Shown: in pieces, positions 5,248 through 59,819 of the stretch | How positions within the stretch are numbered: position 1 is the first letter of the stretch | Layout of the letters: every line of letters begins with the position of its first letter | DNA from: Steroidobacter gossypii | GTDB taxonomy: Bacteria; Pseudomonadota; Gammaproteobacteria; Steroidobacterales; Steroidobacteraceae | Direction of reading: 5' to 3' | Assembly: GCF_016801985.1 (NCBI RefSeq) | Contig: NZ_JAEVLS010000008.1 | Location: forward strand, 124,001 to 188,000 | Length of the DNA: 64,000 nucleotides | The notes under the pieces: model-generated | Database searches by the model: none | What the model saw: the letters and a program-made list of their open reading frames with translations, nothing else | What the model was told of the DNA's origin: nothing | Made by a program: the position numbers and the translations under genes

Positions 5248-5430
5248 TGCGTTAGGCAATTGCCTGACGCGCGCGTCCATAACGTAAAAAAAACCGGCGC
5301 TCCAGTGTTCCTGGTGCGAGCCGGCAGGCGTTCAACCAGATTTTTTGCGGCATGCGCCGCAATCGCTGCGCCTATCTCGTGCCAGAATAGCGCTCGATCC
5401 CACCGCAGAGTGGGCAGCCGCATTCTCAGC

Positions 5431-8013
<2,583 letters not shown>

Positions 8014-10929: not shown

Positions 10930-10956
10930 TAAAGCAACCATGCTGCATGCCGATAT
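10930..10956 (+). promoter_or_regulatory. Sigma-28 (FliA) promoter of the chemotaxis operon
   Basis: TAAAGCAA, an 11-bp spacer, then GCCGATAT. This matches the enterobacterial FliA consensus TAAAGTTT-N11-GCCGATAA at the whole TAAA core and at seven of eight -10 positions. The predicted start is near 10963, about 30 nt before the ATG of the STAS gene. It is the best promoter match in the window and places the whole che operon in the late flagellar class. Confidence 0.8.
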
Positions 10957-10992
10957 GAATCCCGAATCTGTGAAATCAGTAACAAGAGCCTC

Positions 10993-12702
10993 ATGAAAAA
11001 CAGCAAGCGCAAACGATCCGCCAAAGCCGCACGCGCCGTTCAGGCGTCGAGCGTCGAAGCTGTTGTCGTCGAAACGCCGGCTGTGGTTGCTGCCGAGTCT
11101 GTCAATGAATTGAGCCCGGTCGCGGTTGATGCGTTGATTGCTGAGCCTGTCTCCCCTGTGATGTCGATGGATGCCTCTGGCGTGGAATCGTCTGCGTTTG
11201 CGGATTCCAGCGCCGAGACGGTCGTCGCCGAGACCGCCGAGTCCGTGCACGCCGCCGCCGAGCAGCTTCTTGCCCAGGCGTCCGCCTGGATGGACGCCGA
11301 CGCGTCCCTTGCCACTGCCCCCGAATGGGTCGACCCCACCGCCGACACCGTGGTCGCCGTCGAAGCCGACCTCTTTTCAACGTCCGCGTCCGCTGCGGCC
11401 GAAGCCGTTCTTGTTGAGACGGCCGGGTCCGCCACGACCGAAGCCGCTCTCATTGAGACGTCTGAGTCGGCATTCGCCGGGGCCGACGCCGTGGTTGTTG
11501 CGACGTCCGAGTTCGCCGCGGCCGACACCGTTCTCACTGAAACGGCCGAGTCGGTTAGCGCCGCCGAAGCGCTTTCTGTCGAATCGTCCGTGTATGCGCA
11601 CAGCGCGACCGACAGCATTCTTGATGCAGCGGCTGAGTCGACGCACGCCGCCGCTAACATCGCTCTGATTGAAGCATCCGAGTCGTCGCCGGCTACGAGC
11701 GAATCCGCTCTCGTTGAAACGTCCGAGCTGGCGCCGGCTACGAGGGAATCCGCTCTCGTTGAAACGTCCGAGCTGGCGCCGGCTACGAGCGAATCTGCTC
11801 TCGTTGAAATGTCCGAGTCGTCGCCGGCTACGAGCGAGTCCGCTCTCGTTGAAACGGCCGAGCTGGCGCCGGCTACGAGCGAGTCCGCTCTCGTTGAAGC
11901 GTCGGAGCTGGCGCCGGCTACGAGCGAATCCGCTCTCGTTGAAGCGTCCGAGCTGGCGCCTGTCACGAGCGGAGCCGCTCTCGTTGAAACGTCGGAGCTG
12001 GCGCCCGCTGCTACCGACGCCGCTCTCGTTGAGACGTCGGAGTCGGCGCGCGCATCGAGCGACGCCGTGTTTGATGAAACGGCTGAGTCGGCCGGCGCGG
12101 CTGCCGTAGAGATTCCTGTTGAAGCGGCCGAGCCAACGCATGGCGTGGCCGAAGCCGTTGTCGATGGTGTGACTGAGTCGGCGCATGCCGCCGCTGGAAA
12201 TGTACTTAGTGAAGCGGCCGATTCCGCAAACGCCGTGAGCGAAGCCGTTTTCGTTGAAGCGGTCGCGGCGGTACATGTCGCCGAAACGACCGTTCCCGAA
12301 GCGCCGGACTCAGTGCACAGCGGCGAATCTGGTCATGCGTCGAAGCCGGCGCAGGCCGCGGCAGAAACAGTCGCCGAAGCCGAGCCGGCTGCGAACGAAC
12401 CCCCGCGGCCCGTCGAGCCCCTCATCGTCCTCGCCGCCAACTGCAGCGTCAAAGATGCCGCAGCGCTTAAAACGTCTTTGTGCGCGCTCGCACAGCAGAG
12501 CACCGAAGTGACTCTCGACGTGAGCGCCGTCGAACGTGTCGACACCGCGACCATGCAACTGCTGTGCGCCTTCGTGCGCGACCGCAGCGGTCGCAATCAG
12601 AGCGTCGTGTGGCGCGGCGAATCGCAAGCCCTGCACGACGCGGTGCGCCTGCTCGGCGTGGGTGAGCTGCTGCGCTGGCAGCCGAAAGAGGTAGCCGCAT
12701 GA
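10993..12702 (+). CDS. Repeat-rich STAS-domain protein heading the che operon
   Basis: 569 residues. A short basic start (MKNSKRKRSAKAARAV) is followed by about 450 residues made almost only of Ala, Ser, Glu, Val and Thr in imperfect 15-residue units of the type ESALVETSELAPATS. Units are near-identical between residues 237 and 326 and degenerate to both sides. The C-terminal 95 residues form a STAS-like domain (PLIVLAANCSVKDAAALKTS, then LDVSAVERVDTATMQLLCAF and a SQALHDAVRLLGVGELLRW end). STAS domains commonly bind partner proteins or kinases. The stop overlaps cheY by 4 bp, so it is coupled to the chemotaxis genes. The acidic, low-complexity spacer and its repeats are unusual; its function is unknown. 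Confidence 0.85.
   Translation: MKNSKRKRSAKAARAVQASSVEAVVVETPAVVAAESVNELSPVAVDALIAEPVSPVMSMDASGVESSAFADSSAETVVAETAESVHAAAEQLLAQASAWMDADASLATAPEWVDPTADTVVAVEADLFSTSASAAAEAVLVETAGSATTEAALIETSESAFAGADAVVVATSEFAAADTVLTETAESVSAAEALSVESSVYAHSATDSILDAAAESTHAAANIALIEASESSPATSESALVETSELAPATRESALVETSELAPATSESALVEMSESSPATSESALVETAELAPATSESALVEASELAPATSESALVEASELAPVTSGAALVETSELAPAATDAALVETSESARASSDAVFDETAESAGAAAVEIPVEAAEPTHGVAEAVVDGVTESAHAAAGNVLSEAADSANAVSEAVFVEAVAAVHVAETTVPEAPDSVHSGESGHASKPAQAAAETVAEAEPAANEPPRPVEPLIVLAANCSVKDAAALKTSLCALAQQSTEVTLDVSAVERVDTATMQLLCAFVRDRSGRNQSVVWRGESQALHDAVRLLGVGELLRWQPKEVAA
11701..12105 (+). repeat. 45-bp tandem coding repeats
   Basis: Nine consecutive 45-bp units begin at 11701 and every 45 bp to 12061. 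The first six (to 11970) are nearly identical and encode ESALVETSELAPATS with changes at a few positions; the last three are diverged. Further degenerate units of the same theme occur upstream from about 11400. Unit length is a multiple of three, so copy-number change keeps the frame open. The repeat also opens long false frames on the minus strand. Confidence 0.93.
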
Positions 12703-13061
12703 CGCGGATTCTGGCCGTCGACGATTCGCCTTCGATGCGCGACATGGTCCGCATCGCGCTGACCAGCGCGGGCTTCGATGTGACTTCCGCCGGCGACGGC
12801 CAGGAAGCGCTCGATATCGCGCGGCAATCCGGTTTCGATTTGGTGCTCTCCGACGTCAACATGCCAGTGATGGACGGCATCCAGCTGATTCGCGCGCTGC
12901 GCGCCGAATCCGCCTACCGACACATTCCCATCCTGATGCTGACTACCGAAGCGGGCCCCGACCGTAAGAAAGAAGGCAAGGACGCCGGCGCCACCGGCTG
13001 GATCGTGAAACCTTTCGATCCGGCGCAACTCGTGGCGACCATGCATCGCGTGCTGAGGTAA
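12699..13061 (+). CDS. cheY: Chemotaxis response regulator CheY
   Basis: 120 residues, a single receiver domain. Acid pocket D8 and D9 (AVDDSPSMR), phosphorylation site D52 (SDVNMPVMDG), switch threonine in LMLTTEAG and lysine K104 (IVKPF). No output domain, as expected for CheY, which when phosphorylated by CheA binds the flagellar switch. Its ATG overlaps the stop of the STAS gene, and cheA follows after 7 bp. The sequence resembles the single-domain regulators placed beside cheA in non-enteric che operons; a CheY-like phosphate sink is possible if another cheY exists elsewhere. Confidence 0.93.
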   Translation: MTRILAVDDSPSMRDMVRIALTSAGFDVTSAGDGQEALDIARQSGFDLVLSDVNMPVMDGIQLIRALRAESAYRHIPILMLTTEAGPDRKKEGKDAGATGWIVKPFDPAQLVATMHRVLR

Positions 13062-13068
13062 TACAAAA

Positions 13069-15153
13069 GTGGCCATCGATCTCGCCCAATTTCACGATGC
13101 CTTTTTCGAAGAGAGCTTCGAAGCGCTCGATTCGATGGAGGCGGCTCTGCTCCAGCTCAACCCGGGCGCGCCCGAGCCGGAGCTGATCGGAACGATTTTC
13201 CGCGTCGCTCACTCCATCAAGGGCGGCAGCGCGACTTTCGGCTTCTCCGAAGTCGCCTCGTTCACTCACACCTGCGAAACGTTGCTCGACGAACTGCGCG
13301 CCAATCGCATGCAGGTGACGCGGCACGTGACCGATCTGCTGCTGAAGTCAGTGGACGTGATGCGCGACATGCTGCGCTCGGTGCAGCGTAAGGAAGCCAT
13401 CGATCAACAGAAGGTCGCCGACCTGCAGTTCGATCTGGAACTGGCGATCGCGCAGAAGAATCAGCCCGCCGCCGCGCCTGCTCCGGCGCCAGCCGCTGCC
13501 GCTCCGGTCGAAGCAGCGAAGCCGGCCGCCGCGCACCGTTGGCGCATCATGTTCCGTCCGTATCCGCAGCTGTTCGTGCACGGCAACGATCCGTTGCGCA
13601 TGCTGCGCGAACTGGGCGAGCTCGGTCAGCTCACCGTCAAGCTCGACGGCAATGCCTTGCCGGCGCTGGAAGAGCTCGAACCCGAATCGTGCTATCTCGC
13701 CTGGGAGCTCACGCTCGACGGTGATGTGAAGCGCGAAGCCATCAGCAGTGTGTTCGATTGGGCTGAAGGCGATTGCGACCTGGAGATCACTGAAGAGACT
13801 GCGCCAGTAGCCGCTGCGCCTGCGGTCGCGCCGGCTGCGGCCCCGGAAGTGAAGCCTTCCAATGTAGTAAACATCGCCGATGCCAAGCCGAGCGCCGAGC
13901 CGGCGCTCCAGGCTGCAACACCGGCTGCACCGAGTGCGGGAGTAGAGGCTGCTCCGAAAGCGGGCCAGATGACCGATGGCGGCTCGATCCGCGTCAGCAC
14001 CGAAAAGATCGACGAGCTGATGAACACCGTCGGCGAGCTGGTCATCACTCAGTCCATGTTGACCCAGCTGGGCAGCAAGTTCAGCGGCGCGGCCGCCGAG
14101 CAGTTGCGCTCGGGCCTGGCCGCTTTGGAAAGAAACGTTCGCGAGCTGCAGGAAAGCGTCATGCGGGTGCGCATGCTGCCGATCAGCTTCGTGTTCAGCC
14201 GCTTCCCGCGCATGGTGCGCGATCTGAGCCAGCGTCTGGGCAAGCAGGTCGATCTGAAGATGACCGGCGACCAGACCGAGCTGGACAAGACGGTCATGGA
14301 AAAGATCGGCGATCCGCTGGTGCACCTCGTGCGCAACAGCGTCGACCACGGCATCGAAATGCCCGATGTGCGTGCTGCTGGCGGCAAGACGCCGAACGGC
14401 ACCGTGTTCCTCAACGCTTATCACAAGGGCGGCAGCATCACCATCGAAGTGGGCGATGACGGCGGCGGCTTGAACAAGGAGCGCATTCTCAAGAAGGCGC
14501 GCGAGCGCAATCTGGTCGGCGCCAACGACCCGCTGAGCGAGGAGCAGATCTACGATCTGATCTTCCTGCCAGGCTTCTCCACGGCCGAGCAGACCACCGA
14601 CATTTCCGGCCGCGGCGTCGGCATGGACGTGGTGCGTCGGAATATCAAGGAGCTGGGCGGCACCATCGAAGTGCGCTCCACGCCCACCAAGGGCTCGCGC
14701 TTCATCATCACGCTGCCGTTGACGTTGGCCATCGTCGACGGTCAGTCGGTGGCGGTCGGCACCGAAACATACATCGTGCCGCTGATCACCATCATCGAGT
14801 CCTTGCAGTTGAAGCAGGGCATGGTGAATCGCGTCGCCGGCCAGGGTGAAGTGTTCTGGTTCCGCGACGCGTACGTGCCGGTGGTCCGCCTGCACGAACT
14901 GTTCGGCCTGGAGCCGCGCACCAAGCAGTTGCACGAAGGTTTGATCATGGTCGTGGAAGGCGAGGGCCGCAAGGTGGGCCTGTTCGTCGACGACCTGCTC
15001 GGCCAGCAGCAAGTGGTCATCAAATCGCTGGAAACGAATTTCCGGCGCGTCGACGGCGTCTCGGGCGCCACCATCCTGGGCGATGGCGCGGTGGCGCTGA
15101 TCCTGGATGTGCCGGGCTTGATTCGCGTCGCGACGCAGAGGATGGCGGCCTGA
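13069..15153 (+). CDS. cheA: Chemotaxis histidine kinase CheA
   Basis: 694 residues starting at a GTG. P1 Hpt domain with the phospho-histidine H48 (RVAHSIKGGSATFGF); Ala/Pro linker; a P2-like regulator-binding domain (about 160-245); second linker; P3 dimerization helices (RVSTEKIDELMNTVGELVIT); P4 ATPase with N-box HLVRNSVDHGIE and G-boxes around VGDDGGG and GRGVGMDVV; P5 CheW-like domain to the end. CheA autophosphorylates under MCP control and passes phosphate to CheY and CheB. It is 7 bp after cheY; a perfect palindrome follows its stop. Confidence 0.96.
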   Translation: MAIDLAQFHDAFFEESFEALDSMEAALLQLNPGAPEPELIGTIFRVAHSIKGGSATFGFSEVASFTHTCETLLDELRANRMQVTRHVTDLLLKSVDVMRDMLRSVQRKEAIDQQKVADLQFDLELAIAQKNQPAAAPAPAPAAAAPVEAAKPAAAHRWRIMFRPYPQLFVHGNDPLRMLRELGELGQLTVKLDGNALPALEELEPESCYLAWELTLDGDVKREAISSVFDWAEGDCDLEITEETAPVAAAPAVAPAAAPEVKPSNVVNIADAKPSAEPALQAATPAAPSAGVEAAPKAGQMTDGGSIRVSTEKIDELMNTVGELVITQSMLTQLGSKFSGAAAEQLRSGLAALERNVRELQESVMRVRMLPISFVFSRFPRMVRDLSQRLGKQVDLKMTGDQTELDKTVMEKIGDPLVHLVRNSVDHGIEMPDVRAAGGKTPNGTVFLNAYHKGGSITIEVGDDGGGLNKERILKKARERNLVGANDPLSEEQIYDLIFLPGFSTAEQTTDISGRGVGMDVVRRNIKELGGTIEVRSTPTKGSRFIITLPLTLAIVDGQSVAVGTETYIVPLITIIESLQLKQGMVNRVAGQGEVFWFRDAYVPVVRLHELFGLEPRTKQLHEGLIMVVEGEGRKVGLFVDDLLGQQQVVIKSLETNFRRVDGVSGATILGDGAVALILDVPGLIRVATQRMAA

Positions 15154-15180: not shown

Positions 15181-15299
15181 ACGCGCCTGACCGGAGTGCC
15201 CGTACGGATAGCCGGGTGGATCAGGCGCGAGCATGGAATGTTTGGGGTTCACAAAAGCAAGTTGGGGCTCGAGAAAGCGGAGCTAAGGAAATCGTCGTC

Positions 15300-17033
15300 A
15301 TGAATACGTGGAATATTTCAGTTAAGGCCAAGCTGTTCACCACGCTGGCGTTGGCGGGGATCGTGATGATCCTGGTCGGTGTCATCGGTCTGGGCGGCAC
15401 CAAGTCCTCCAATTCCGACCTGGATGCGATCTTCTCCAATCGCTTCATGCCCACGGGCTGGGTCGGTGAGATCGAGACCCACGAGCGCGCGGTGCTCGAA
15501 AAAGCCGAGGAAGTGGTCATCCGGCAGGATGCCTCGGCGATCAGGGCGGCCATGGATCTGCTTCAGGAGCGCGAAGGCGCGGTGAAGGAGCTGCTGCGCA
15601 AGCTCGACGCCACCGAGCTCACCGACAAGGAGCGCGAGATCGTCGCGCAGTTCCGCGCTCACGGCAGCGAAGTGCTCAATCACGTGCAGGAAGCGTTGCT
15701 GGCCGCACAGGCTGGCAACTTCAGCCCGGCTGAAAGCGCGCTGATCGAAAAGGCGCGCCCTGCCTACGAAAAGCTCAACTCCGCCGGCGACACTCTGCTC
15801 AAGACGCAGATCGAAGTGGCGCAGCAGATGCGCACCGAGGCGGACAGCTCCTTCAAGAAGGCGAGCGCGCTGATCATCGGCGCCATCGTGGTTGGCATCG
15901 GCCTGTCGGCGCTGCTGGGTTTCCTGATCATTCGCTCCATCGTCAGCACGCTGAACGCGGCGGTGAACATCGCCGATCGCATCGCCAATGGCGAGCTGGG
16001 CAACGACGTGCGCGTCGACAGCCGCGACGAGCTGGGTCGCCTGCTCGAAGCGCTCAAGCGCATGGATGGCAAGCTCGTGGAAATCGTCGGCGGCGTGCGC
16101 GGCAGCGCGGATGCGGTCGGCGCGGCGGCTCGCCAGCTGTCGCACGGTAATGACGATCTTTCTCAGCGCACGCAGGAACAAGCGGCCGCGCTGGAAGAAA
16201 CAGCGTCCAGCATGGAAGAGATGACCGCCACAGTGAAACAGAACGCGGACAACGCGCGCCAGGCGAATCAGCTGGCCGTGGGCGCTCGCGAACAGGCGGA
16301 GAAGGGCGGCGCCGTGGTTCAGCGGGCGATCGAAGCGGTGGGCGAGATCAACCACTCCAGCCGCAAGATCGCCGACATCATCGGCGTGATCGACGAGATC
16401 GCCTTCCAGACCAACCTGCTGGCGTTGAACGCGGCGGTCGAAGCGGCGCGTGCCGGCGAACAGGGCCGCGGCTTCGCGGTGGTCGCGACCGAAGTGCGCA
16501 ACCTCGCTCAGCGCAGCGCCAGTGCCGCGAAGGAGATCAAAGGTCTCATCAACGACTCGGTCGACAAGGTCAAAGTCGGCTCGCAGCTGGTCGACGAGTC
16601 CGGCAAGACGCTCTCGGAAATCATGGAAAGCGTCAAGAAAGTCACCGACATCGTGGCCGAGATCGCCGCCGCTTCCGAAGAACAGTCGGCCGGCATCGAG
16701 CAGGTCAACAACGCCGTCAGCCAGATGGACAACGTCACGCAGCAGAACGCTGCGCTGGTGGAAGAAGCGTCCGCGGCCAGCAAGTCCATGGAACAGCAGT
16801 CGGCCACGCTGGTCTCGCAGATCGGATATTTCCGCCGGGCCGATGGCAGCGGCATCACCGGCTCGGGCCCGCACGCCTCCGCAGAAGTCGTCCGTATCGC
16901 TCCGACCGCTGTCGCCAAGCCGCGTACCGCGGTCCGCAAGGCTGGCCTGGGCGCCCCGGGCAAACCCGCTCGCTCGAGCGCAGCGCCTCTGGCTCGCGCC
17001 AGCGGCGATGACAGTCAGTGGAGCGATTTCTAA
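15300..17033 (+). CDS. Methyl-accepting chemotaxis protein
   Basis: 577 residues. Two transmembrane helices (about 13-33 and 190-212) flank a helical four-helix-bundle ligand domain; then HAMP (IADRIANGELGNDVRVDSRD) and a cytoplasmic coiled coil with the signalling hairpin [20 protein letters not shown], which contacts CheA and CheW. The very end is ...DDSQWSDF: the last five residues QWSDF fit the aromatic pentapeptide that tethers CheR/CheB to receptors. ATG 15300 has AAGGAAA upstream; the open frame extends back to 15216 without a good start. It sits between cheA and cheW in the operon, so it is probably the main receptor of this array. Confidence 0.94.
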   Translation: MNTWNISVKAKLFTTLALAGIVMILVGVIGLGGTKSSNSDLDAIFSNRFMPTGWVGEIETHERAVLEKAEEVVIRQDASAIRAAMDLLQEREGAVKELLRKLDATELTDKEREIVAQFRAHGSEVLNHVQEALLAAQAGNFSPAESALIEKARPAYEKLNSAGDTLLKTQIEVAQQMRTEADSSFKKASALIIGAIVVGIGLSALLGFLIIRSIVSTLNAAVNIADRIANGELGNDVRVDSRDELGRLLEALKRMDGKLVEIVGGVRGSADAVGAAARQLSHGNDDLSQRTQEQAAALEETASSMEEMTATVKQNADNARQANQLAVGAREQAEKGGAVVQRAIEAVGEINHSSRKIADIIGVIDEIAFQTNLLALNAAVEAARAGEQGRGFAVVATEVRNLAQRSASAAKEIKGLINDSVDKVKVGSQLVDESGKTLSEIMESVKKVTDIVAEIAAASEEQSAGIEQVNNAVSQMDNVTQQNAALVEEASAASKSMEQQSATLVSQIGYFRRADGSGITGSGPHASAEVVRIAPTAVAKPRTAVRKAGLGAPGKPARSSAAPLARASGDDSQWSDF

Positions 17034-17200: not shown

Positions 17201-17707
17201 ATGACCAATCAAGTTGCTGCGCAGATCGACGCCGCCGCGGCCGGTTCCAACCAGGTGCTGACCTTCACCCTGGGCGATGAGACCTACGGCGTGGACATCC
17301 TGCGAGTGCAGGAGATTCGTGGCTGGTCTCCGGTCACGCGTATTCCGCAGGCGCCCAGCCACGTGCTTGGCGTGTTGAACCTGCGCGGTTCGATCGTGCC
17401 GATCGTGGACCTGCGCATGCGCTTCAACCTGCAGCATGCCGAGTACACCCCGCTCACGGTCATTATCGTGCTGTCGGTGCAGTCGCCCATCGGCCGTCGC
17501 GATTTCGGCGTGGTGGTCGACGGCGTGTCCGACGTGATCGACGTGGCCGCCAACGATGTGAAGCCGGCGCCGGAATTCGGCGCGCACGTGAGCACCGAGT
17601 TCATCGAAGGTCTGGCTTCAGTGTCGGGTCGCATGGTGATGCTGCTCGACATCGATCAACTGATCGGGGCCGACGTCACGGGTGTGGCGCTGAATCCTGC
17701 GGCCTGA
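17201..17707 (+). CDS. cheW: Chemotaxis coupling protein CheW
   Basis: 168 residues, one CheW (SH3-like) domain. Typical blocks are visible: LTFTLGDETYGVDILRVQEI at the start, IPQAPSHVLGVLNLRGSIVPIVDLR in the centre, and FGVVVDGVSDVIDV, then the end LLDIDQLIG. CheW bridges the MCP signalling tips to the P5 domain of CheA. The gene lies 167 bp after the MCP, a spacer holding strong hairpins, and 73 bp before cheR. Confidence 0.96.
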   Translation: MTNQVAAQIDAAAAGSNQVLTFTLGDETYGVDILRVQEIRGWSPVTRIPQAPSHVLGVLNLRGSIVPIVDLRMRFNLQHAEYTPLTVIIVLSVQSPIGRRDFGVVVDGVSDVIDVAANDVKPAPEFGAHVSTEFIEGLASVSGRMVMLLDIDQLIGADVTGVALNPAA

Positions 17708-17725: not shown

Positions 17726-17757
17726 ACGGCTCGCGAGGAGCCTTCCTTGCGAGCCGT
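17726..17757. repeat. Hairpin between cheW and cheR
   Basis: ACGGCTCGC (17726-17734) and GCGAGCCGT (17749-17757) form a perfect 9-bp stem with a 14-nt loop that can itself pair AGGA with TCCT. No T-run follows. Third stem-loop at a gene junction of the che operon. Confidence 0.65.
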
Positions 17758-17780
17758 TGTTCACCCGCGAACCCGTCCAT

Positions 17781-18662
17781 ATGCCGACTCCAGCTTCCTC
17801 AGCTTCGACTTCCGACGCCGCGCACTATGGACCTCAGCTCGGTGACGCCGAGTTCGATTTCATCCGCCACGTGGTGGGCGAGAACGCCGGCATCGTGCTC
17901 GGTCCCAACAAGCGCCAGCTGGTGCAGGGGCGACTGGCGCGGCGGCTGCGCGAGCTCGGGCTGCCGAGCTACGAAGCGTATTGCGAATACCTGCGCGAGG
18001 CGGGTCCCGAAGAGCTGGTCGGCCTGATCAACGCGATCACCACCAACGTCACTTCGTTCTTTCGCGAGAATCATCATTTCGAGGCGCTGGCCTCGTACAT
18101 GCTCCCCGAAGCGATGCAGCGCAATGCCGCTTCCCGACGCCTGCGTATCTGGTCGGCGGGTTGCTCGACCGGCGAGGAGCCGTATTGCATTTCCATGGTG
18201 GCCGCCGAAGTGCTGCCAGCCTCGCCACGTTACGATTTCAAGATCCTGGCGACCGACATCGACAGCGACGTGGTTGCCGCCGCCACCTCCGGCATCTATC
18301 CGCTCGATCGCATGTCGAGCGTTTCGCAGGAGCGGCTCAAACGATTCTTTCAGAAGGGCGGCGGCGAGCACCTGGGCTGCGCGGTGGCCAAGCCGGAGCT
18401 GAAGTCCATGATCACGTTTCGCACGCTCAACCTGCTGCACACCTGGCCGATGAAAGGCCCGTTCGACGTGATCTTCTGCCGCAACGTGATGATCTATTTC
18501 GACCAGCCGACGCGCGAGAAACTGGTGAGCCGGTTCAGCGACATGCTCGCGCCCGGCGGTTACCTGTGCATCGGCCATTCGGAATCCATTCATGCAGGCA
18601 CCGCTCCCTTCAAGCTGGTCGGCAAGACCATCTACCGCCGCAACGGGGGCCTCAATGGATAA
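17781..18662 (+). CDS. cheR: Chemoreceptor methyltransferase CheR
   Basis: 293 residues. An N-terminal helical domain (DAEFDFIRHVVGENAGIVLG) precedes the SAM-dependent methyltransferase domain, with the binding motif IWSAGCSTGEEPYCISMV and the catalytic-domain block FDVIFCRNVMIYF. CheR transfers methyl groups from S-adenosylmethionine to receptor glutamates. ATG 17781 is chosen; a TTG at 17757 adds eight residues but lies inside a hairpin arm. The 3' end overlaps cheD by 8 bp. Two MCPs in the window end in pentapeptides that the CheR beta-subdomain could bind. Confidence 0.94.
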   Translation: MPTPASSASTSDAAHYGPQLGDAEFDFIRHVVGENAGIVLGPNKRQLVQGRLARRLRELGLPSYEAYCEYLREAGPEELVGLINAITTNVTSFFRENHHFEALASYMLPEAMQRNAASRRLRIWSAGCSTGEEPYCISMVAAEVLPASPRYDFKILATDIDSDVVAAATSGIYPLDRMSSVSQERLKRFFQKGGGEHLGCAVAKPELKSMITFRTLNLLHTWPMKGPFDVIFCRNVMIYFDQPTREKLVSRFSDMLAPGGYLCIGHSESIHAGTAPFKLVGKTIYRRNGGLNG

Positions 18663-19278
18663 GTCGCCATTGGCCCGGCCGCTGCCCGGTTTCGAGAACA
18701 TCCGCCGCTACACCAATTCCCAGGGCCAGGTGATCGCCAAGCTGCTGCCGGGCGATTTCTATGTGACCACTTACGACGAAGTGCTCGACACGGTGCTGGG
18801 CTCGTGCGTGTCGGCCTGCATCCGCAATCCTAAGCTCGGCATCGGCGGCATGAATCATTTCATGTTGCCGCGGCCGAGCGGCAATGGTCATGACACGTGG
18901 GAAACCGGCGCCGCCGGCCGTGCCACGCGTTACGGCAGCGCTTCGATGGAACAGCTGATCAACCGCATCCTGAAGGCGGGCGGCACGCGCGCCGATCTCG
19001 AAGTGAAAATCTTCGGCGGCGGCCGCGTGTTGAGGACGCTGACCGACGTCGGCGATCACAATGTGACTTTTGTGCGCGAGTTCCTCAGGAACGAAGGTTT
19101 GCGCGTGACTTCCGAGGACGTGGGCGATACCTGCCCGCGCCACGTGCAGTACTTCCCTTTGACGGGCCGCGTTCGCGTACGTCATCTGAATTCGAGCAGG
19201 GACATCGCTTCGCACGAACAGCAGTACCTCAAAGGCCTGGAAAAGACGCCTGTGGCCGGCGAGATCGACCTCTTCTGA
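18655..19278 (+). CDS. cheD: Chemoreceptor glutamine deamidase CheD
   Basis: 207 residues. The catalytic cysteine is C51 in VLGSCVSACI and the catalytic histidine H68 in GGMNHFMLP, in the order known for CheD; VKIFGGGRVL is the third conserved block. CheD deamidates receptor glutamines to methylatable glutamates and in some species also helps CheC. No cheC or cheZ is present in this window. It overlaps cheR by 8 bp and is followed 18 bp later by cheB, a common R-D-B order in proteobacteria. Confidence 0.95.
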   Translation: MDKSPLARPLPGFENIRRYTNSQGQVIAKLLPGDFYVTTYDEVLDTVLGSCVSACIRNPKLGIGGMNHFMLPRPSGNGHDTWETGAAGRATRYGSASMEQLINRILKAGGTRADLEVKIFGGGRVLRTLTDVGDHNVTFVREFLRNEGLRVTSEDVGDTCPRHVQYFPLTGRVRVRHLNSSRDIASHEQQYLKGLEKTPVAGEIDLF

Positions 19279-19296: not shown

Positions 19297-20412
19297 ATGG
19301 CAATCAAACTTCTCATCGTCGACGACTCGGCCCTGGTGCGAAAGCTGTTGAGCGAGATGCTCAAGCAGGATCGCGACATCGAGATCGTCGGCACGGCCAC
19401 CGATCCGTATGCGGCGCGCGAGAAGATCAAGCAGCTCAATCCGGATGTCATCACGCTGGACGTGGAAATGCCGCGCATGGACGGCATCACCTTCCTCGAG
19501 AACCTGATGCGGCTGCGGCCCATGCCGGTGGTGATGGTGTCCTCGCTGACCCAGAAGGGCGCCGATGTCACATTGCGTGCGCTCGAGCTGGGCGCGATCG
19601 ACTTCGTCACCAAGCCCAAGGTCGACGTCGCCGGCAGTCTTGCGAACTACGCTGAAGAGTTGATCGCAAAGGTGAAGGTGGCAGCCAGTGCGCGAGTAAG
19701 TGCGCGGACGGCAGCGCCACGCAAGGCGGCAGTGCTGCAGTCGTTGACTCCAGAACAGCGTCACAGCGCGGACGCCGTCCTGCCGGCCTCCAGCAGCAAG
19801 CGCGTGTTGCGCACTACCGATCGAATCATCGCCATTGGCGCATCCACGGGCGGCACCGAGGCGATCCGCGAGGTGCTCGAGTCGCTGCCGGCTGACGCGC
19901 CGGCCGTGGTGATTTCTCAGCACATTCCGGCGGCTTTCAGCAAACCGTTCGCGGAGCGCATGAATCGTTGCTCGGCGATGTCGGTGTGCGAGGCCAGTGA
20001 TGGCCAGTACATCCTGCCGGGCCACGTCTATATCGCGCCCGGCGACCAGCACCTGCTGGTGGAGCGCGACGGCGCTCGTTACCGCTGCCGGCTCAGCAAC
20101 GGCCCGCCCGTCAATCGTCACCGCCCCAGCGTCGATGTGATGTTTCGTTCGGTGGCGCAGAACGTCGGTCCCAACGCCGTGGGCGTGATCCTGACCGGGA
20201 TGGGAGACGATGGCGCCCGCGGTCTGAAGGAGATGATGGAGGCCGGAGCTCCGACGGTCGCCCAGGACGAAGCCACCAGCGTGGTGTGGGGCATGCCCGG
20301 CGCAGCGGTCAAACTCGGCGGCGCGCAGTTGGTGTTGCCTTTGCATCGGGTGGCCGCCGAGATGATCCAGCTGACCGCCGATCACCCCAACGGCAAGCTG
20401 GCGCACGGCTGA
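19297..20412 (+). CDS. cheB: Chemotaxis methylesterase response regulator CheB
   Basis: 371 residues. N-terminal receiver domain ([10 protein letters not shown], phosphorylation site D55 in [10 protein letters not shown], lysine in TKPK), a linker of about 60 residues, then the methylesterase domain with the triad S183 ([11 protein letters not shown]), H209 ([11 protein letters not shown]) and D305 (MGDDGA). Phospho-CheB removes methyl groups from MCPs. Last classical che gene of the operon; an HDOD gene follows 109 bp later. Confidence 0.96.
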
Positions 20413-59468: not shown

Positions 59469-59507
59469 GTTTCGATTCTCTCGTTGGCCAGTCGGATCCC
59501 ACCCAAA

Positions 59508-59712
59508 GCCCTCCCCGCTGGGGAGGGGCAATAAAAACTTTTTAACCCCAACCCCTCCTCGCTGGGGAGGGGCTATGAAACTTCTTAACCCCAACCCCTC
59601 CCCGATGGGGAGGGGCTATAAAACTTTTTAACGTCAACCCCTCCCGATGGGGAGGGGCTATAAAAACTTTTAACCTCAACCCCTCCCCGATGGGGAGGGG
59701 CTAGAAAAACTT
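59508..59712. repeat. Five tandem 43-bp hairpin repeats
   Basis: Five copies start near 59509, 59552, 59595, 59638 and 59680, so the period is 43 bp (last 42). Each has a stem CCCCTCCCC-N(3-4)-GGGGAGGGG followed by an A/T-rich linker like CTATAAAACTTTTTAACC. As the T-rich linker follows each stem in both directions, every unit could act as a weak bidirectional terminator. Copies differ by a few bases. This fills most of the 378-bp gap between the small membrane protein and the ExeA-type gene. Confidence 0.93.
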
Positions 59713-59819
59713 TCGAACAACTAGAAAGATATTTTTTCGAGCAGGAACCCGCAGCCGCATGAATTCATAAAGCGGCGGCGCTTCGCTCGGAGGGCAAAAG
59801 GTACTTGTTGAATTCTGAG

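Follow-up and report, generated by a model that had tools for sequence, protein, structure and literature searches.

A repeat-extended, possibly CheS-like STAS protein in a che operon of Steroidobacter gossypii and a candidate CheA domain that accompanies its gene

The first gene of a chemotaxis (che) operon in Steroidobacter gossypii encodes a STAS domain preceded by a long, acidic, repeat-bearing extension, and it raises the question of what such a protein does beside the kinase CheA and whether the extension has any part in it. The gene lies in a stretch of 64,000 nt (contig NZ_JAEVLS010000008.1, positions 124,001 to 188,000), here called the window, whose numbering is used for all coordinates given without another label; the source assembly is a draft genome of 7.1 Mb in 32 contigs. 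By analogy with a rhizobial protein, we propose that the gene product is a CheS-like auxiliary to the kinase of flagellar chemotaxis and would steer CheA phosphate to the adjoining CheY, a reading to which we assign a probability of roughly 0.55. The pairing of the STAS gene with a particular stretch of CheA is a more general result than the extension. The features on which the argument turns are the following.

10993 to 12702, plus strand: STAS gene, putatively CheS-like, 569 aa, open reading frame from ATG to TGA
12699 to 13061, plus strand: cheY with Trp at the Tyr106 position, CheY1-like (Pfam and motor-contact residues)
13069 to 15153, plus strand: cheA (Pfam)
13516 to 13833, plus strand: CheA interdomain, residues 150 to 255, without a match to any Pfam family, the proposed docking site of the STAS domain

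The occurrence of the CheA interdomain follows that of the STAS gene closely. Among 60 related genomes, that of S. gossypii included, 27 carry both, 2 carry the CheA stretch only, 31 carry neither and none carries the STAS gene alone (Fisher p 5e-15, which is only a guide because the genomes are related). Outside the genus the corresponding counts are 13, 2, 31 and 0 (Fisher p 1e-9, kinship ignored). Both exceptions (G037 and G052) have an adjoining STAS_2 gene recognised by PF13466, which the search with the window protein had missed. The two genes are also close neighbours: in the 60 genomes, a STAS gene on the same strand lies within 3.5 kb of 38 of the 40 interdomain-bearing CheAs, 459–970 bp upstream in 34 cases and 2.1–2.7 kb downstream in 4, and the remaining two CheAs sit less than 1 kb from a contig end. 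This proximity test used 39 STAS places, chosen by contig, and 2 of the 38 rest on our own profile search. The CheA dimerisation domain occurs at 92 places in these genomes, 39 of them in interdomain-bearing CheAs and 53 without the interdomain. Six of the latter were extracted with up to 8 kb of sequence (one being cut by a contig end), and profiles found neither an interdomain nor a STAS domain in them; for the other 47, most of which lie in frames of more than 1,200 aa, no STAS_2 was seen within 10 kb among the matches listed (at least 150 STAS_2 places).

The two partners occur once within a single frame. The fusion, found in genome G061, begins with STAS_2, followed in order by the CheA interdomain (residues 108–196) and a degenerate CheA part with a dimerisation match below the cut-off, a marginal ATPase match and CheW; Pfam gives no Hpt. 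It is located at L106 2181–3923 (G061:C15), before a separate CheW gene and, as judged by eye, after frames resembling fliI and fliJ. Furthermore, the S. gossypii genome has a second interdomain-bearing CheA (L101 1504–3944; G000:C22:1299000-1305500) with its own STAS gene directly upstream. Counted from its first start, the STAS frame of this second pair has no more than 151 aa, and it is without the acidic extension, thus providing an internal control. The interdomain is common to the CheAs of Rhizobium tumorigenes and Phaeobacter (hhalign 99.4%), which follow STAS or STAS-like genes. Taken from sequence comparisons, the interdomain is a candidate new domain family that would travel with an adjoining STAS gene in Gamma- and Alphaproteobacteria. 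An ordinary P2 domain of the Escherichia coli type was rejected, by sequence only, with an hhalign value of 0.4% against residues 120–265 of E. coli CheA; Pfam at E ≤ 1 listed no P2 in four CheAs, and a search of PDB sequences with the interdomain returned two matches (E 0.65 and 0.89), neither of them named CheA. At the level of the fold, a resemblance to P2 may still exist.

The adjoining CheY points in the same direction. PMC8225110 gives the counterparts of eight E. coli CheY motor-contact residues in Agrobacterium fabrum CheY1 as S A K R W V A R; it also finds about 5 times better binding of FliM to A. fabrum CheY2 than to CheY1. At these eight positions the CheY encoded in the window has A P K K W V T R, and the cheZ-linked CheY of S. 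gossypii itself has A R I A Y I K K, with Tyr106. We then considered the STAS-linked CheYs of 26 loci and the window: all 19 recovered by script, the window included, have Trp106, several of these loci coming from close relatives. Eight loci yielded no CheY by script; three of them (Phaeobacter, R. tumorigenes and Pseudoalteromonas) were read by hand and have Trp. In Pseudoalteromonas NZ_CP099945.1 (L036 10208–10596), the cheY between the STAS gene and cheA is split over two frames and unannotated.

A 2012 study by Dogra reportedly mapped the CheS-binding region of Sinorhizobium meliloti CheA to residues 163–256, and is said to have placed rhizobial CheS in the polar array with CheA. In Sinorhizobium, CheS binds CheA and directs the phosphate of the kinase to CheY1, which acts as a sink. 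According to PMC4214558, CheY1 of Sinorhizobium meliloti binds CheA-CheS approximately 100-fold better than CheA, and with CheS the response is sharper, its Hill coefficient going from 3.43 to 7.61. In Agrobacterium, atu0515 and atu0516 are presented as a STAS gene just before a Trp106-type cheY1 (PMC12654446 and PMC8225110). The S. gossypii protein resembles CheS in its STAS domain, in the location of its gene directly before a Trp106 cheY in a che operon with cheA, and in having a partner CheA with a matching interdomain, common to the rhizobial plasmid CheA. On the other hand, CheS is a single domain of about 100 aa, while the window protein has 569 aa (119–237 aa elsewhere in the genus), carries a basic head and a 455-residue acidic extension, is gammaproteobacterial and coexists with CheZ. 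It is because the same parts are present (a STAS protein, the CheA interdomain, a Trp106 CheY and a motor CheY) that we propose that the system may work like CheS. Membership of CheS is not claimed, given the different size and given that direct homology rests on proxies, the comparison having been made with the STAS proteins of Phaeobacter and Neorhizobium in place of the Sinorhizobium meliloti CheS sequence.

The mechanism would be as follows. The STAS domain would dock on a dedicated CheA domain flanked by the Hpt (P1) and dimerisation parts, and docking would raise the preference of CheA for the adjoining Trp106 CheY, probably a weak motor binder. By draining CheA phosphate, this CheY could then sharpen or end the signal of the Tyr106-type CheY encoded beside cheZ. 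We infer the docking and the phosphate steering, as well as the tether role considered below, from sequence.

How, then, does the extension fit a CheS-like protein? The STAS protein itself can be divided as follows.

10993 to 11052, plus strand: basic N-terminal head, residues 1–20, net charge +7 (charge count)
11053 to 12417, plus strand: acidic Ala/Glu/Ser/Val extension, residues 21–475, 455 residues, net charge −79 (charge count)
11659 to 12063, plus strand: nine in-frame 45-bp tandem units, residues 223–357, commonest unit SALVETSELAPATSE (codon register)
12424 to 12660, plus strand: STAS_2 domain, residues 478–556 (PF13466, E 9.4e-14)

The STAS identity of the C-terminal domain is supported by PF13466 and by the structure model, PF01740 remaining below its cut-off. 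The initial annotation had described a STAS domain with an acidic Ala/Ser/Glu/Val extension of about 450 residues and nine near-identical 45-bp repeats that preserve the frame, and all of this was borne out. The extension holds 4 K/R against 83 D/E, and Tandem Repeats Finder places the array at 11661–12049 with a period of 45 bp, 8.6 copies, 87% matches and 0% indels. The repeat protein is confirmed as a real sequence, with a copy number taken from a draft assembly that could be wrong. The 15-residue repeat attributed to the extension is regular in the array, with amino-acid autocorrelation at lags 15, 30, 45 and 60 giving z values of 13.5, 13.9, 11.5 and 10.5; elsewhere the repeats are degenerate and without strict register, the best lag being 13 on the N side (z 5.1) and 30 on the C side (z 4.8). 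A chance origin of the repeats was rejected, since the nucleotide identity at lag 45 is 0.86, a value to be set against a maximum of 0.44 when the codons of the extension were shuffled 500 times. Likewise rejected was a genome-wide repeat family: in 14 genomes of the genus the array protein matches its own locus only (E ≤ 0.001).

The STAS gene is present in all 13 other genomes of the genus, where it encodes proteins of 119, 122, 123, 125, 141, 148, 149, 159, 166, 180, 210, 216 and 237 aa (starts assigned by us at the conserved basic head). In the 12 aligned proteins, the window protein included, M1, K5 and K7 of the head are invariant, and the head has a net charge of +5 to +9 in the other 11. 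Short orthologues were one half of what had been named beforehand as telling against the initial annotation; the orthologues are indeed short, though the four closest relatives do have a smaller acidic A/E/V linker. These four share 74–80% identity in the STAS region, with 60–142 residues before the matched STAS part and a net charge of −10 to −27 past residue 20. Four more distant members of the genus have short, near-neutral linkers (net +1 to −1). The stretch SPVAVDALIAE, just before the window array, resembles the linkers of the relatives. Outside the genus, STAS proteins encoded beside cheA have 97 aa in Vibrio, 90 in Pseudoalteromonas, 95 in Phaeobacter and 102 in Neorhizobium; the STAS-like protein of R. 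tumorigenes has 82 aa and is a weak match, and ten more distant loci in a scan of named genomes encode STAS proteins of 91–142 aa. In plasmids, tblastn with the STAS domain found 1 record of 72,556. A lysine/arginine-rich N-terminus is also seen in other gammaproteobacterial che-operon STAS proteins (L021, L025, L028, L053, L054 and L056); the STAS proteins of Vibrio, Pseudoalteromonas and Vulcaniibacterium are without a basic N-terminal stretch.

Since the orthologues are short, the 455 acidic residues do not belong to the core of the protein. The window protein stands at the far end of a range of linker lengths rather than forming a family of its own, and among the 14 genomes of the genus the long extension is confined to that of the window. 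Most likely, the extension is a lineage-specific tether enlarged by tandem duplication. Every member of the genus has a linker between the basic head and the STAS domain, in some short and near neutral, in others longer and acidic, and 45-bp tandem duplications would have expanded it to 455 residues in S. gossypii. Most likely its role is a quantitative one, in which the reach or the charge of a flexible tether bearing the basic head would matter, or it may have no role. The initial annotation had also stated that no protein of this design is described. This holds for the extension only, because a STAS protein with this CheA domain and a Trp106 CheY is the CheS arrangement. Among the literature titles and abstracts listed, which for two queries were 20 of 58 and 10 of 42 papers and came from a library with few subscription papers, none dealt with a repeat-extended STAS chemotaxis protein or with a gammaproteobacterial CheS.

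Several observations speak against a CheS-like auxiliary with a flexible tether. In 2 of the 13 other genomes of the genus, and in 8 genomes from other genera of the family, the STAS gene is followed by cheA with no cheY in between, so that pairing with a Trp106 CheY is not obligatory. In a sample of 114 genomes of the class, profile A4 places a STAS gene within 3.5 kb of 29 of 42 interdomain CheAs, only at 3.5–7 kb in 4 cases, and not within 7 kb in 9. One of these nine, in the window genome, does have a STAS gene by PF13466, indicating that A4 misses at least one. This test entered 55 of 84 STAS places, with the two halves of a match in G092 merged; by eye, none of the 29 places left out is on the contigs of the nine CheAs. 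Compared by profile, the STAS domains are only weakly alike, with hhalign values of 66% for the Phaeobacter protein and 59% for that of Neorhizobium. In PMC8225110, loss of CheS in A. fabrum altered CheA-CheY interactions only slightly, so that even CheS may not act alike everywhere, and the authors leave the true role of A. fabrum CheY1 open. PMC8429497 describes the CheS-bearing rhizobia as being without CheZ. The S. gossypii genome has cheZ (G000:C30:122795-123397), and a phosphate sink would therefore be less needed. As for the tether, AlphaFold draws lone helices at residues 74–106, 176–230 and 387–428 of the extension, and by the charge-hydropathy rule the extension, owing to its many Ala and Val residues, does not count as disordered (H 0.529 against a boundary of 0.476).

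Among the other explanations, the one that survives best sees the extension as a neutral passenger, a low-complexity linker prone to slippage that has grown by drift while the STAS domain does all the work. It agrees with the free variation of linker length and sequence within the genus, with the restriction of the array to a single locus in the 14 genomes, and with the ratio of non-synonymous to synonymous differences (pN/pS) within the array, which at 0.61 denotes at most weak constraint. However, acidity is kept while the sequence changes (−10 to −27 in the four closest relatives, −79 here), a point qualified by the near-neutral linkers of the four more distant members, and the frame remains intact through nine units without indels. 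Moreover, the value of 0.61 in the true frame is below those of the other plus frames (1.10 and 1.63), though two minus frames, at 0.61 and 0.64, score much like it. Given these minus frames the test is weak, and selection on the repeat protein is weakly indicated. Overall, we regard the passenger as a tentative alternative that has an appreciable minority chance of being right. A more speculative idea, which we consider rather unlikely, is that of a length-tunable gain element. Here the basic head and the acidic tether would form a polyampholyte arm on the CheA-docked STAS protein, and differences in the number of 45-bp copies from cell to cell or strain to strain would change either the unloading of CheA to the Trp106 CheY or the contacts of the arm with neighbouring array units, thereby tuning chemotaxis.

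The initial annotation had favoured a structural scaffold or polar anchor, in which the acidic extension would position the receptor array at the cell pole with the STAS domain as its hook on the array. Long acidic repeats are indeed carried by polar landmarks of the HubP/FimV type, with which the window protein shares such a region and the motility context; it differs in that Pfam recognises only STAS in it, with no LysM or FimV domain. While the location in the operon, the conserved promoter, a basic head conserved across the genus and the polar-array location reported for rhizobial CheS would all suit an anchor, the anchor-sized part is unique to the window genome, the 13 other orthologues having 119–237 aa. 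In addition, in the AlphaFold model, built from 12 sequences, the block means of the per-residue confidence score (pLDDT) are 88–96 over most of the STAS domain, and the extension lies mostly below 50, including residues 232–385, that is nearly all of the array; STAS is the sole domain that Pfam lists. Beyond the operon place the claim drew no support, and the STAS gene pairs instead with the CheA domain and the Trp106 CheY; we judge an anchor improbable.

Least probable is an anti-sigma-antagonist, in which the STAS domain would bind a sigma or anti-sigma factor (FliA, FlgM) and not CheA, linking the state of the array to flagellar expression: the fold is that of SpoIIAA/RsbV, but the position aligned to SpoIIAA Ser58, which we take to be the phosphorylated switch residue, is Ala in 19 of 22 rows (Pro, Ser and Thr once each), so that no conserved Ser is found there, and it is CheA that co-occurs with the STAS domain and in one case is fused to it. 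An orthologue of MlaB, the STAS_2 subunit of the MlaFEDB lipid transporter, was also rejected (20.7 bits against the NCBIfam equivalog cut-off of 90), the operon genes scanned in the window being chemotaxis genes.

The STAS gene heads an operon with the order STAS, cheY, cheA, MCP (methyl-accepting chemotaxis protein), cheW, cheR, cheD, cheB. Besides the genes listed above, it comprises the following features.

10930 to 10956, plus strand: sigma-28-like promoter TAAA-N15-GCCGATAT, 0 mismatches to the consensus
10964 to 10976, plus strand: conserved leader block GAATCTGTGAAAT, 7 bp past the −10 element (leader alignment)
15216 to 17033, plus strand: MCP
17201 to 17707, plus strand: cheW
17757 to 18662, plus strand: cheR
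18592 to 19278, plus strand: cheD, from its listed start
19297 to 20412, plus strand: cheB

The position at the operon head and the overlap of 4 bp with cheY (ATGA at 12699) were as first annotated, and so was the promoter, which is sigma-28-like. The latter fits exactly the sigma-28 consensus TAAA-N15-GCCGATAW and is kept in 12 of 12 aligned leaders of the genus, the window included, with TGCCGATA invariant and a spacer of 15 or 16 among the relatives. The window holds 9 sites with at most 2 mismatches to this consensus, 2.4 being expected. In the same 12 leaders the GTGAAAT part of GAATCTGTGAAAT is invariant; this block begins near the expected transcript start, and GCCGATA followed by TGTGAAA within 4–14 bp occurs once in the genome, in the leader of the STAS gene. 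About 12 kb upstream, on the same contig, another cheY is directly followed by cheZ.

Two further observations concern the surroundings. At 5260–8013, 3 kb upstream of the STAS gene, the window encodes a protein kinase (PF00069, E 3e-48) that also has TPR-type repeats; in other systems kinases act on STAS proteins as substrates. At 59501–59713 a 43-bp unit with a GC-rich palindrome is repeated about five times in tandem.

In conclusion, small STAS genes heading che operons are tied to a specific CheA domain in Gamma- and Alphaproteobacteria. If these STAS proteins act as proposed, CheS-type phosphate steering would be wider than the rhizobia and compatible with CheZ, and the S. gossypii protein would be a naturally occurring extreme case in which to ask if a CheS-like protein is affected in any way by a tether.
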